From Microthrixaceae bacterium (GTDB lineage: Bacteria > Actinomycetota > Acidimicrobiia > Acidimicrobiales > Acidimicrobilacustridaceae): a stretch of DNA of 42,163 bases. Below, piece after piece: positions 36,681-42,163 of this stretch. The notes beneath the pieces are model-generated. The model saw only the letters and a program-made list of their open reading frames with translations. It was not told the origin of the DNA and searched no databases. Position 1 is the stretch's first letter; the number at the start of each line of letters is the position of its first letter. The position numbers were made by a program, and so were the translations under genes. Where the stretch lies: contig CANFHM010000016.1 in assembly GCA_947446975.1 (NCBI GenBank), positions 1 through 42,163 of the forward strand, written 5' to 3'.

Positions 36681-36767
36681 GTCGGAGTGGCGGAATAGGC
36701 AGACGCGCCAGCCTAAGGAGCTGGTGCCCGCAAGGGCGTGGGGGTTCAAGTCCCCCCTCCGACACCA
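36681..36767 (+). tRNA. tRNA-Leu, apparent anticodon AAG
   Basis: The gene is 87 nt with encoded CCA. The acceptor stem GTCGGAG (36681-36687) pairs perfectly with CTCCGAC (36757-36763), then A and CCA. The long variable arm GCCCGCAAGGGC and the TTCAAGT T-loop are leucine-like class II features. The anticodon stem CCAGC/GCTGG encloses the loop CTAAGGA, so T33 is followed by A34 A35 G36 and G37. That reads AAG, not one of the usual bacterial Leu anticodons (GAG, CAG, TAG, CAA, TAA). A34 would have to be changed to inosine by a TadA-type deaminase to read CUU, CUC and CUA. CTC leucine codons are very frequent in this window. Confidence 0.95.
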
Positions 36768-37882: not shown

Positions 37883-38767
37883 ATGGAACCGCTGCACACC
37901 TTCGCCTCCGATATCCATTCGCAGTTCGGCGAGGACGGCATCATCGGTGAGGTGCTCGACAGGATCGGCACGGTGGTCGAGCCCTCGCGCTGGTGTGTCG
38001 AGTTCGGTGCCGCCGACGGCGTGTGGCTCTCCAACACCTGTGACCTGATCCGCAGTCGGTCGTATCGTGCGGTGCTCATCGAGGCCGATGCGCAGCGGGC
38101 GGCGGCGTTGGCGAAGAACCATCCCGGCAGCGAGGTCATCAAGCTCAGTCGGCGGGTGGGGCTCGACGGCGCCGACCGCCTCGATGCGATCCTCTCGAGC
38201 AGCGGTGTCCCGGTGGATCTCGATGTGCTCTCCATCGATATCGACGGCTGCGACTACTGGATCCTGGAGTCGCTCGAGGTCCATCGACCCCGGGTCATCG
38301 TCATCGAGTTCAACCCGACCATCCCGAACAGTGTCGAGTTCGTCCAACCCCGTGACTTCTCCGTCCAGCAGGGGTCGAGCCCGCTCTCCATCACCCGGCT
38401 CGCCGAGGTCAAGGGGTACGTGCTGGTCGCGGTCACCTTCGTCAACCTCATCCTCGTGCGCGCCGATCTCATCGACGCCGTGCTCGGAGCCGGCGCCGCG
38501 CCGCCGTCGCTCTCGGATCTCCGTGATGATGCCGACTGCATCACCCATGTCTTCGCCGGCTACGACGGCACCCTGCTGTTCAGCGGAGCCCAGGTCCGCC
38601 TTCCATGGCACCAGCTGGAGATCGATCCCGGGCGACTCCAGCCTGTTCCCCGCGTCTGGCGGTCCTATCCGGGGGACTGGCCGAGGACAGGAGTGCGCTC
38701 ACTGGCCTGGCGTCTCCATCGGCGAGTTCGGGTCGGTCTGCGCTGGGGGCGATGGCACCGGATCTGA
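37883..38767 (+). CDS. FkbM-like SAM-dependent methyltransferase
   Basis: A 294-aa protein. SDIHSQFGEDGIIGEVLDRI is the typical opening of FkbM-type proteins, followed by SAM motif I CVEFGAADG (38-46) and NTCDLI, the acidic ribose-binding residue E67 in VLIEAD, and the active-site strand SIDIDGCDYWILESLEV (117-133). The C-terminal part is specific (YDGTLLFSGAQVRLPWHQLE and a basic tail). FkbM relatives O-methylate sugars and natural products. The start is set by GAGGAG 9 nt before ATG 37883. It stands 165 bp before the collagen-like gene on the same strand, so a link to glycan decoration is possible but unproven. Confidence 0.82.
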   Translation: MEPLHTFASDIHSQFGEDGIIGEVLDRIGTVVEPSRWCVEFGAADGVWLSNTCDLIRSRSYRAVLIEADAQRAAALAKNHPGSEVIKLSRRVGLDGADRLDAILSSSGVPVDLDVLSIDIDGCDYWILESLEVHRPRVIVIEFNPTIPNSVEFVQPRDFSVQQGSSPLSITRLAEVKGYVLVAVTFVNLILVRADLIDAVLGAGAAPPSLSDLRDDADCITHVFAGYDGTLLFSGAQVRLPWHQLEIDPGRLQPVPRVWRSYPGDWPRTGVRSLAWRLHRRVRVGLRWGRWHRI

Positions 38768-38874
38768 GCACATCCCGTCCGGCGTCCTGTCCGGCGCGGA
38801 TGTCACTCTCGGGCGCAACCGGAATGCTCCCTGATCTGGTCCACCGGGGCGATGCCCGTCCCAGGGTGGGTTCC

Positions 38875-38880
38875 TAGGTT
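38875..38880 (+). promoter_or_regulatory. -10 box TAGGTT of the collagen-like operon
   Basis: TAGGTT would start a transcript near 38887, giving a leader of about 46 nt with GGAGGAGAA just before ATG 38933. So this operon uses a classical Shine-Dalgarno. The remainder of the 165-bp gap after the methyltransferase shows only an 8-bp direct repeat (GTCCGGCG at 38777 and 38789). Confidence 0.4.
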
Positions 38881-38932
38881 CTCGGTGCGGGCCCTGTGCG
38901 GGTCCGACCAACCATCCGCATGGAGGAGAATC

Positions 38933-40534
38933 ATGAGCCCGAGTCCCGAACTGCGTCCCCGTTCCGAGGTCGAACCACCGTCCCAGCATCATGTCCCAGC
39001 CGGTCGGCGCGTCGGCCGTCCGATCGAGGGGCGGGGTCGACGGCGGGCGGCGCATTTCGGAGCTGCCACCGCCGTCGCCGTCTCGCTCGCCGGCCCGATC
39101 AGTCCGCTGCTCATGACCGAGCAGGCGGGTGCTGTCGTCATCAGCGCTGAGGACGGTCCCGTGGCGACCGCGTCGGCGTTCGTCACCGTCGCGCCCATGC
39201 GACTGCTCGACTCCCGGCCCGGTTCGGGGATCGACAACGGCGGCGTGGCCACTGGCCCCTACGCCCCGGCCACCACGACGATGGTGCCGATCACGGGCCG
39301 TGCCGACATCCCCGATGATGGCTCGGTGGCCGCAGTGGCGATCAGCATCACCGCCACCGCCACGGTGCCCGGGTACCTCACGACCTGGTCGGGCGACGGT
39401 GAGCGCCCGTTCACCTCGAGTCTCAACGTGGACGCCAGTGGTCCGGCCACCTCGGGTGTGATCGTCCCCGTCGGTGAACTCGGTGACATCGCCGTCTACA
39501 ACCAGAACACGACCAACGTCGTGATCGACGTGATCGGGTACTTCTCCACCACTGCGGCCATGGGCCCGACCGGGGCCACGGGTGCCACTGGAGCCACCGG
39601 CGCCACCGGGGCGACCGGCGCCCCGATCCGGTTCCTCGGCGCGTGGAGCGGCGTGACCACCTACGGCGTGGGCGACGCCGTCGAGGTGGAGGGCACGTCC
39701 TACATCTCGTTGGTCCCGTCCAACACGAACAACGACCCGACGGATCCCGAGAACTCGGCGATCTGGGCGGTGCTCGCCGCCGCCGGTGTCGACGGTGCCT
39801 CGGGGGCCACTGGTGCCACCGGTGCAGTCGGTGCGACCGGCGCCACCGGCCCGATGGGCGCGACCGGGCCGCAGGGTCCCACCGGTCCGGCCGGCGCGAC
39901 CGGACCGACCGGTGCGACAGGTGATGTCGGAGCCACCGGGGCGATGGGGCCGACCGGGATCGCCGGTCCCACCGGGCCAACCGGAGCCACCGGCGCAACA
40001 GGCGCTGTCGGTTCCACCGGCTCGACCGGTGCGGTCGGCATCCAGGGCCCGATCGGTGCCACCGGTGCCACGGGTGCGACGGGTGCGACCGGTCCCGCAG
40101 GGTTCACGTTCGGGGACTTCACCAACTCGCTCACCACGCCGGTCACGATCTCGGGCACGACGAACGTGCTCAACGTCGGGGCGCCGAACGGGCCGGTGTA
40201 CGCCACCGGCACGCTGTCGATCCTGAGCACCCGTCCCGCCGGGTCCGGGCTCTGGGTCGGCTACGCGGAGTGCTCGTGGTCGGGATCGGGTGTGCTCGGC
40301 AACACCGCACGGACACCGATCATCTTCAACGCCGCCGATCCGATGATGCCCGGTTCGGAACTGGTCGTGATGGCCACCATCCCGAACGCCGGGACCGCAG
40401 CGGTCAACTGCACGGTGACGGCGGTCAGTGGATCCGGTGATCCCTTGATCCAGGTCGTGGTCACGGGCGCCTCCGGGCTCTCGGTGAACCAGCTGGCGAA
40501 CGGCTACACGACCTTCGCCGGGCCCATCTCATGA
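38933..40534 (+). CDS. Secreted collagen-like protein with RLLDSR-type beta domain and CBM5/12-like module
   Basis: A 533-aa protein. A long charged N-region leads to a hydrophobic signal (about 41-68). Residues about 80-205 match an actinobacterial surface domain beginning [10 protein letters not shown] and ending [11 protein letters not shown] short collagen block of 7 Gly-X-Y triplets (211-231) precedes a CBM5/12-like module (about 232-285) with W238, [19 protein letters not shown] and W278. A second block of 34 triplets (288-389) follows, then a beta-rich C-terminal domain of about 140 aa with C447 and C493, which may trimerise. By my count 27 of 41 triplets end in Thr, good O-glycosylation sites. 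GGAGGAGAA precedes ATG 38933. The stop overlaps the TPR gene start (ATGA). Confidence 0.88.
39563..39625 (+). repeat. Collagen-like Gly-X-Y block 1 (7 triplets)
   Basis: GPT, five GAT and GAP. Synonymous codons for Gly, Ala and Thr vary from unit to unit, so the repeat is kept at the protein level rather than being a fresh DNA tandem repeat. Confidence 0.85.
39794..40099 (+). repeat. Collagen-like Gly-X-Y block 2 (34 triplets)
   Basis: An unbroken run of 34 triplets dominated by GAT, with [15 protein letters not shown] and others. Thr occupies the third position in 21 of them. Proline is scarce in the Y position, as usual for bacterial collagens, which lack hydroxyproline. Confidence 0.85.
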
Positions 40535-41139
40535 GCCAGGCCACCCTCGGGGTCCCGTCGTCGGTGACGACGGGACCCACCACCTCCCCACGGCGCAGGC
40601 TCCTCGCTCTCGTCGTGGTCCTCGCCATCGTGCTCGTCGCTGGATCGTTCCTCATCGGACGGTCCAGCGGCGGGTCGTCGCGCGGGGGAGCAGCGACAGC
40701 GACCGCCGGGACCCCCGATGAACTGCTGGCGCTCGGGCTCCAGCTGCATCTCAACGGTCAGGTCGATCAGGCCAGGGAGGTGTATCTGCGAGTGCTGACG
40801 ATCGATCCGAACAACGCATTCGCGAACTACAACCTCGGTGAGATCAGCCAGGTGAGCGGCGACACCGCGACAGCGCTCACGTACTACGACACTGCGCTGG
40901 CCGCGGATCCGACGCTGCTGTCGGCCGTATACAACCGGGCGCTCGTCCTGCGGGACGTGGGTCGGGTCGAGGAGGCGGCCGCGGAGCTTCGTCGGGTGGT
41001 CGCCGCCGATCCGAACAACGCCGGCGCCGCCTACAACCTCGGTGTGCTGCTCATCGCCGGGGGGAACGTGAAGGAGGGCACCGAGCTCGTGAATCGTTCG
41101 ATCGAGCTGGACCCGTCGATCCGGCGACCGGGCGGATGA
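40531..41139 (+). CDS. Membrane-anchored TPR protein
   Basis: A 202-aa protein. A polar N-terminus ends at RRR, then one helix [20 protein letters not shown] anchors it, followed by a Gly/Ser/Thr-rich spacer. Three tetratricopeptide units follow (about 65-96, 97-130, 131-170, plus a partial fourth), each with the A/G-Y/F-N-L pattern ([33 protein letters not shown]) and a DP turn. The TPR face is probably extracytoplasmic. Its ATG overlaps the collagen stop by 4 nt and its stop overlaps the glycosyltransferase ATG by 4 nt, so all three are translationally coupled. It may scaffold or export-couple the collagen-like protein; that is inference. Confidence 0.86.
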
Positions 41140-42163
41140 CACCGCAGTCGCGCAGCGACCTCCCGAGGATCGTCCTCACGATGATCGTGAAGGACGAGGC
41201 CCATGTGATCGAGCGCTGTCTTTCGTCGGTGCGGCCCCTCATCGATGCGTTCTGCATCGTCGACACGGGCAGCAGCGACGGCACACAGGAGTTGATCAGA
41301 CGAGTCCTCGATGGTCTCCCCGGGGTGGTGATCGATCGCCCCTGGGTCGACTTCGCCACGAACCGGACCGAGGCGATCGAGGCGGCGCGGGGATTCGGTG
41401 AGTACTCACTGATGATCGACGCCGACGTCGAGTGCCGGGTGGACGCAGACCTCGACGTCGATGCCCTGAGACGTTCGCTGAATGCTGAACTGTACAGGGT
41501 CGAGCTGCGTGACGGGATCAGGTACCAACGACCACTGCTGACCTCCACCCGTGTGCCGTTCAGCTACCGCGGTGTGCTCCACGAGTTCCTCGAGATCCCC
41601 CAGACGGCCACCGACGGCGGGATCATCCCGGGGTTCCACTACGAGTCGAGCTTCGACGGTGCTCGATCGCGCAACCCGTCCAAGTTCATCGATGACGCGC
41701 TCGTGCTGGCCGACACGATGGCGTCGGGCCGCGAGGCCGATCTCGACGCCCGCCACACCTTCTACCTCGCCCAGAGTCTCCGGGACGCCGGCAACGATGC
41801 CGGCGCCGAGATGGTGTATCGGGCCCGGGCCGACATGGGTGGCTGGCCCGAGGAGGTCTACATCTCCCTGCTGTGGCGGGCCCGGCTGCTGCGGTCGATG
41901 GGTCGGCCCCTCGGCGACTCGCTCGAGGTGCTGGCCCGTGCCCAGGAGGTCCTGCCCACCCGGGCCGAGGCCTGGTGCGAGGGAGCGGCGCAGGCGCGTG
42001 CGATGGGTCTCATGCAGCTGGCGCATGCCCTCGCCCGGCGGGCCAGTTCGATCACCGAACCGGTGGACGGCCTCTTCATCGAATCGCAGTGCTACCGCTG
42101 GCGTTCGCTCTACGAGTACGCGATCTCGGCGTTCTACGCCGGGGATCTCGGTGGTGGCGCCCG
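41136..42163 (+). CDS. GT2 glycosyltransferase with helical C-terminal repeats, truncated by window end
   Basis: 342 residues are visible and the frame is open to the right edge. RIVLTMIVKDEAHVIERCL and FCIVDTGSSDGTQELI (39-54) are GT2 donor-site motifs, and the metal motif is MIDADVEC with DAD at 95-97. From about residue 200 the protein is all helical (DARHTFYLAQSLRDAGNDAG, YISLLWRARLLRSMG, AWCEGAAQARAMG), resembling TPR-like units, as in cytoplasmic protein-glycosylating enzymes such as SunS-like proteins. ATG 41136 overlaps the TPR stop by 4 nt. Coupling to the Thr-rich collagen protein suggests that protein as a substrate. The C-terminus is not seen. Confidence 0.85.
   Translation, partial: MTPQSRSDLPRIVLTMIVKDEAHVIERCLSSVRPLIDAFCIVDTGSSDGTQELIRRVLDGLPGVVIDRPWVDFATNRTEAIEAARGFGEYSLMIDADVECRVDADLDVDALRRSLNAELYRVELRDGIRYQRPLLTSTRVPFSYRGVLHEFLEIPQTATDGGIIPGFHYESSFDGARSRNPSKFIDDALVLADTMASGREADLDARHTFYLAQSLRDAGNDAGAEMVYRARADMGGWPEEVYISLLWRARLLRSMGRPLGDSLEVLARAQEVLPTRAEAWCEGAAQARAMGLMQLAHALARRASSITEPVDGLFIESQCYRWRSLYEYAISAFYAGDLGGGA

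Follow-up and report, generated by a model that had tools for sequence, protein, structure and literature searches.

Does an actinobacterial locus in which a collagen-like protein stands close to a glycosyltransferase encode a dedicated system for placing sugars on that collagen? The question is raised by the last genes of contig CANFHM010000016.1 (Microthrixaceae bacterium, assembly GCA_947446975.1), all 42,163 nucleotides of which were analyzed and are called the window here. In series on the same strand (+), the window carries genes for an FkbM-type methyltransferase, a collagen-like protein, a membrane-anchored tetratricopeptide repeat (TPR) protein, and a family 2 glycosyltransferase with TPR-like helices (the GT2-TPR enzyme, or GT). 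Taking sequence, structural models, and analogy together, we put the probability at roughly 0.8 that the locus makes a predicted glycosylated surface collagen, in which the GT2-TPR enzyme would modify Thr at the Y position of Gly-X-Y triplets before the protein is exported. An initial annotation had proposed such a dedicated enzyme, coupled to its substrate. Conservation of the collagen, TPR, and GT trio, a pairing of GT with collagen across phyla, and a Thr signature in the triplets all strengthen that proposal, in which glycosylation itself stands as a prediction.

Locus Architecture and Conservation in Relatives

The collagen-like gene (38933..40534, +) is taken to start at the ATG at 38933, which is preceded by GGAGGAGA and was preferred over the longest open reading frame (ORF) start at 38852 because of the GGAGGA upstream. 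The 533-aa product matches Pfam Collagen (E = 3e-18) and contains 43 Gly-X-Y triplets in two runs: block 1, with 7 triplets (39563..39625; GPT, five GAT, and GAP), and block 2, with 36 (39785..40108), the proposed O-glycosylation acceptor. Thr occupies the Y position of 28 of the 43 triplets and the X position of none; the earlier description of a Thr-rich collagen therefore stands, with its count of 41 triplets and 27 Thr corrected on recount. The longest run, at 36 triplets, compares with a maximum of 8 among 2000 shuffles of the same protein.

An ATGA at 40531-40534 joins the end of the collagen gene to the start of the TPR gene (40531..41139, +), and a second ATGA at 41136-41139 joins the latter to the GT2 gene, which bears out the two 4-nt overlaps noted at first reading. 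The 202-aa TPR protein has a single strong hydrophobic segment (residues 24-42), followed by TPR repeats (TPR_2, 3e-22). The GT2 gene (41136..42163, +) is cut at 342 aa because the contig stops at the window edge. Contig C2 of the same assembly opens with 149 nt that overlap the window end exactly; from this sequence overlap the two contigs (C16 and C2) appear to join, completing the enzyme to 377 aa (C, G, and L numbers designate contigs, genomes, and loci). Since an opposite-strand ORF follows the completed gene on C2, the gene unit appears to end at GT2.

Among 37 genomes of the family, 20 have a GT match (E < 1e-20) and six a TPR match (E < 1e-30; G000, G204, G206, G207, G214, and G224), and every one of these six TPR matches sits ≤2 kb from GT. 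The collagen, TPR, and GT genes are consecutive in G204 (L068) and G207 (L069), where they overlap by 1 or 4 nt; collagen relatives are present in both loci and in L071. The trio is spread over ∼8.5 kb with other genes interspersed in L071 (G214) and L074 (G224), and its members are also present, dispersed, in L092. Loss of this association in relatives had been named beforehand as one of two observations that would sink the proposal; the trio is instead kept together, with the start/stop overlaps conserved in L068 and L069.

Pairing of the Enzyme with Collagen in Bacteria and Phages

For a wider survey, an ORF from six-frame translation was called collagen-like if it had ≥10 triplets and ≤20% R, W, C, H, or G in X/Y; on the 80 genome-contig loci, this composition filter reduced those with a ≥10-triplet ORF from 49 to 46. 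Locus counts are not independent because the sets include close relatives, and several order loci share a genome of origin. Among the best 80 of at least 563 confirmed GT relatives on genome contigs, a collagen-like ORF was present in 46, lying ≤5 kb from GT in 43 and ≤2 kb in 34. The best 80 of at least 543 relatives on viral contigs gave similar numbers (46 at ≤5 kb, 42 at ≤2 kb). Of 34 loci fetched from the order and family, 30 have GT at E < 1e-20; a collagen-like ORF lies ≤5 kb away in 16 of the 30, as against 0 of 20 weaker GT2 controls from the same order (Fisher, 3e-5). Flanking sequence was short in part of these controls, with <2.2 kb to one side in 6 and a little under 5 kb in several. 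Contig ends limit nine of the 14 order/family misses (L047, L070, L072, L075, L076, L078, L079, L082, and L085), and one flank of L097 extends for 3.2 kb; L084, L086, L091, and L098 are not limited in this way. In L086, a Thr-poor collagen is found 7.6 kb from GT. Of the genome-contig loci, 34 have complete flanks; the closest collagen is within 2 kb in 16 of them, at 2-4 kb in 3, and at 6-8 kb in 2, and 13 have none.

The 56 linked rows of a 101-row GT tree are scattered widely, on both sides of the midpoint root, and belong to Actinomycetota, Pseudomonadota, Myxococcota, Planctomycetota, and Acidobacteriota. A triplet ORF was also found in 13 of 15 plasmid and phage regions chosen for spread from 44 matching records; the Bacillota among them are Priestia, Peribacillus, and Paenibacillus. 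A lineage-specific invention, which we had entertained, was rejected because GT relatives and the pairing occur far beyond this lineage.

Some of these regions add detail of their own. On an E. coli plasmid (L314:1597-6215), a family GT follows an autotransporter ORF bearing 41 Gly-X-Thr-type triplets, and in L319:1939-6215 a family GT again follows an autotransporter, whose triplet stretch is reduced to a few; this suggests that autotransporters also carry collagen-like glycosylated stalks. On an Acinetobacter plasmid (L325:205-2709), a family GT comes directly after a YadA-type protein that lacks Gly-X-Y repeats, and some members of the family may therefore have other substrates. In many of the viral contigs (L201-L280), the triplets of a large ORF, often ∼1100 aa, lie at a nearly constant 1.3-1.4 kb after GT, an arrangement in which the enzyme may decorate the phage's own fiber.

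A Threonine Signature in Linked Collagens

The fraction of triplets with Thr in Y, measured on the main triplet ORF of each locus, has a median of 0.52 in linked order collagens (n = 16) and 0.67 in linked genome-contig loci (n = 43), compared with 0.10 in unlinked order collagens (n = 29; Mann-Whitney, 1e-7 and 6e-12, respectively). For the unlinked set (L004-L033), each of 30 order genomes contributed its best Pfam collagen match, around which the ∼3-kb locus contains no GT match; a usable count was obtained for 29 of them, and the set includes some simple repeats that are not collagens. The enrichment sits in Y: the fraction of triplets with Thr in X is 0.02 in either linked set, and Thr is more frequent in Y than in X in 16/16 and 43/43 linked collagens and in 18/29 unlinked ones.

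Enzyme and proposed substrate also co-occur at the level of whole genomes. Within the genus, Pfam collagen scores over the cut-off in 13 of 15 GT-positive genomes and none of 6 GT-negative ones (p = 5e-4), and within the family in 17 of 20 versus 5 of 17 (p = 8e-4). Of the 34 genome-contig loci with no collagen in the stretch, 33 were traced to 32 genomes (L158, which shares a record with L153, was omitted), and a collagen match occurs elsewhere in 30 of these 32, over the cut-off in 27. The background rate is 88 of 191 order genomes, a set not taxon-matched to the 32, and one of the 32 (G348, locus L166) is, by its record name, the same assembly in which the linked locus L102 lies, which makes the comparison rough.

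Several observations weigh against the proposed link. No collagen-like ORF lies ≤5 kb from GT in 37 of the 80 genome and 34 of the 80 viral relatives, some on short contigs and others not, and these many relatives led us to reject a rule by which every such GT would adjoin a collagen. Two GT clades (five Rhodanobacteraceae-type and seven Methylobacterium rows) have no linked member, and a same-genus paralogue group is unlinked in all three loci fetched (L084, L097, and L098). Several phage collagens adjoining GT are Thr-poor, some Thr-rich collagens occur in genomes without a strong GT match (e.g., L004 in G081), and the nonadjacent collagens of GT-positive genomes are moderately Thr-rich, with a median of 0.27 (24 of 25 usable, p = 0.025). 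The last figure lends weak support to GT traveling with Thr-rich collagen where the two are not adjacent, and in part counts against a strict rule. Finally, GT and the nearest collagen are on opposite strands in 21 of 43 linked loci.

This last point also favors an explanation in which GT, as part of a variable cell-surface island, glycosylates some other surface molecule, such as another protein, a wall polymer, or a lipid carrier, with collagen nearby because it shares the island. Some loci do contain further GT2 genes, PMT-like and GT87-like genes that score below threshold, and genes that read as secretion genes. We nevertheless consider this explanation unlikely: none of the 20 weaker GT2 matches of the same order adjoins collagen, no gene cluster besides GT is common to more than 9 of 80 neighborhoods (where the repetitive collagens are mostly unclustered), the Thr enrichment is located in Y, and the fold of GT is that of peptide glycosyltransferases. 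The paralogue group itself consists of ORFs mostly 691-705 aa long, common in the genus and seen in 10 places, including G214:C5, G203:C144, and G201:C126.

The GT2-TPR Enzyme

The GT2 product matches PF00535 (1.5e-9). Its predicted structure comprises a GT-A catalytic domain (41136..41660) followed by a TPR-like helical C-terminal domain (41682..42161), and in a fold search with this model TPR chains match residues ∼200-342, so that the GT2 gene with TPR-like helices read at the outset is borne out. In the same search, the peptide glycosyltransferases SunS and ThuS, which share the plan of a GT-A domain with a helical C-terminal domain, match residues 1-294 at 18% identity; against the SunS family model TIGR04195, the GT scores 30.9 bits, far below the cut-off of 350. 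SunS and ThuS are S-glycosyltransferases that act on bacteriocin Cys, unlike the Thr O-glycosylation proposed here. Across a 48-row alignment of diverse GT rows, a DAD motif (residues 95-97) and His149-Glu150 are invariant in the catalytic domain, as are R206, F209, Y210, Q213, D217, R276, and E278 in the C-terminal domain.

The TPR-like arm could also mean that the protein serves chiefly as a chaperone or regulator, with little catalysis, much as the glycosyltransferase GmaR, a sequence match to GT in the PDB, doubles as what an excerpt of PMC9638930 terms an antirepressor. We regard this as very improbable, because DAD and His-Glu are invariant through those 48 diverse rows and are kept in the Priestia megaterium GT described below.

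The Proposed Collagen-like Substrate

Outside its triplets the collagen-like protein follows the order of hydrophobic leader, N-terminal domain, block 1, CBM5/12-like domain, block 2, and C-terminal domain. The protein is probably secreted, given a putative signal sequence (39071..39115) whose hydrophobic core, residues 47-61, has the top 15-residue hydropathy in the N-terminal 110 residues, at a modest value of 1.76. The N-terminal domain (about residues 79-208; 39167..39556) has no Pfam match down to E 0.1 and recurs in family genomes: some portion of the collagen protein has a match in 31 of the 37, and many of the matches fall at query residues ∼79-210. Stretches resembling this domain, often in tandem, recur in other ORFs of family genomes (e.g., G000:C51:6963-8108). 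The CBM5/12-like domain (39641..39766) scores 16.2 bits against PF02839, below the 26.2 cut-off, and is kept in L068 (80% identity) and L069 (76%).

The C-terminal domain (40109..40531) has relatives in L101 and L102 at 91% and 40% identity. Its model is β-rich and could point to a possible trimerization domain, although the model is poor (predicted local distance difference test score of 59) and was built from three sequences. BclA-type exosporium collagens end in a TNF/C1q-like trimerization domain, and the Gly-X-Y region of the window protein is flanked by N- and C-terminal domains as in the BclA type, a comparison made by sequence. These flanking domains are themselves conceivable targets, for the window protein has 43 Thr outside its triplets, and the enzyme might modify Ser/Thr there, leaving the triplets bare. 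That would fit poorly with the variety of linked proteins, which range from exosporium-type and autotransporter-type proteins to large phage ORFs and mostly have Gly-X-Thr in common; modification of the flanks is thus improbable in our estimation, and triplet Thr is the preferred acceptor.

Comparison with Known Systems

The closest functional precedent is SgtA of Clostridioides difficile, a 358-aa protein with a GT domain followed by TPRs whose gene lies directly upstream of bclA3; in vitro, SgtA adds β-O-linked N-acetylglucosamine (GlcNAc) to Thr of BclA3 collagen peptides (excerpts of PMC7157674). Both systems combine a GT bearing C-terminal TPRs (358 versus 377 aa) with a collagen-like gene close by and triplet Thr. 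They differ in that sgtA is immediately beside bclA3, whereas a TPR gene separates GT from collagen in the window, and in that BclA3 is a spore-surface protein of Bacillota; passages of PMC7157674 mention neither a membrane TPR gene nor FkbM. SgtA activity is demonstrated, whereas that of the window GT is predicted, and the two are likened by architecture and description, not by sequence. Because SgtA was shown to act on BclA3 in vitro, the mechanism has precedent, and the apparent novelty lies in the membrane-TPR trio and the breadth of the family.

A second comparison comes from Priestia megaterium, for which passages of PMC4674009 place BclA1, 954 aa long and bearing 220 GXT repeats, in the exosporium. 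A coding sequence on plasmid pBM500 (strain QM B1551; 954 aa, 220 triplets) appears to be BclA1, judging from the equal length and triplet number. It adjoins a 366-aa GT that matches the window GT with a phmmer E-value of 6e-13 (few sequences were compared) and a tblastn identity of ∼25%, and that keeps 21 of 26 key positions of the window GT family, DAD and His-Glu among them. The two loci thus resemble each other in a Gly-X-Thr collagen adjoining a related GT, with two methyltransferase genes nearby on pBM500, and differ in that the plasmid encodes an exosporium protein and two GTs. The main text of PMC4674009 has no word starting with "transferase", and its passages name no glycosyltransferase.

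BclA of the Bacillus cereus group is likewise a collagen-like surface glycoprotein, but of the exosporium (excerpt of PMC8968730). Mimivirus L230 also glycosylates a collagen-like protein outside animals; according to passages of PMC9614988, it is related to human GLT25D1 and acts on hydroxylysine.

Proposed Mechanism and Significance

By analogy with SgtA on BclA3, the most likely activity of the GT is the addition of a sugar to Y-position Thr before export. The collagen chain would be synthesized in the cytoplasm, and the GT2-TPR enzyme, which lacks any strongly hydrophobic segment (its 19-residue hydropathy peaks at 1.27), is probably translated from the same coupled message. Its TPR-like arm would bind the collagen repeat while the catalytic domain moves a sugar from a nucleotide donor, presumably UDP-GlcNAc as for SgtA, onto the Y-Thr hydroxyl of Gly-Ala-Thr or Gly-Pro-Thr. 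The modified chain would then be exported and trimerize, with the membrane TPR protein perhaps helping in assembly or retention, and in loci that have an FkbM enzyme this may add methyl groups to the glycan. A Thr-linked sugar stabilizes worm cuticle collagen, and in the Pro-poor triple helix predicted here such a sugar could do so in place of hydroxyproline.

The initial annotation had also expected a system new to this lineage. That expectation holds in part: the pairing spans several phyla and phages and SgtA is a precedent, but the membrane-TPR trio in this lineage, together with the breadth of the collagen-linked GT2-TPR family, looks new. Among the papers listed in searches of open-licence PMC literature, judged by titles and the beginnings of abstracts, we found no report of the cross-phylum GT2-TPR/collagen pairing or of the membrane-TPR trio.

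A broader proposal would make one GT2-TPR family the general collagen glycosyltransferase of bacteria and phages, with Y-Thr as its code, a Thr-linked sugar replacing hydroxyproline, and the majority of Gly-X-Thr collagens from six or more phyla being glycoproteins; we hold this tentatively, at a little short of even odds. The data suggest that sugar coats are more common on bacterial collagens than has been assumed. A review states that bacterial collagens are mostly not glycosylated and that Thr predominates in Y, at 31.6% over all bacteria (excerpt of PMC8968730). If true, a family-wide link between Gly-X-Thr and GT would help explain this predominance, collagen glycosylation would be predictable from genome sequence, and Thr-linked sugar as a hydroxyproline substitute would become directly testable. 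The GT family also offers candidate soluble enzymes for glycosylated collagen materials. For phage-borne glycosyltransferases, modification of O-antigen or DNA has been proposed (passages of PMC7029224 and PMC10202952); our results suggest that some may instead decorate their own phage fibers.

Accessory and Neighboring Genes

The 294-aa product of the FkbM-type (Methyltransf_21) gene upstream of the collagen gene (37883..38767, +) passes the PF05050 cut-off (25.3 versus 22.7 bits) over part of the model and falls below that of TIGR01444. Three of the 37 family genomes have matches (G000, G204, and G212), each at the GT locus or close to it; in G204 the gene lies ∼4 kb past the collagen gene, and in G212 it immediately precedes a GT fragment located at the end of a contig. 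The methyltransferase read upstream of the collagen gene thus stands as a partial match, and the gene, which we had considered a core part of the locus, was demoted to an optional accessory because of these 3 genomes in 37.

Sub-threshold PMT-like and GT87-like proteins are encoded beside or between TPR and GT genes (L070:587-2194 and L092:5925-7517), the PMT-like gene of L070 (G206), a locus truncated by a contig end, lying between the two; they hint at glycan extension outside the membrane. The GT flanks of L105, L113, L122, and L140 have gene clusters in common that by eye resemble genes for HlyD-like proteins and for type I secretion-like ABC transporters; these could provide a dedicated export route. 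Farther upstream in the window, a tRNA-Leu gene (anticodon AAG; 36681-36767, +) is flanked by genes for an M3 peptidase and an esterase.

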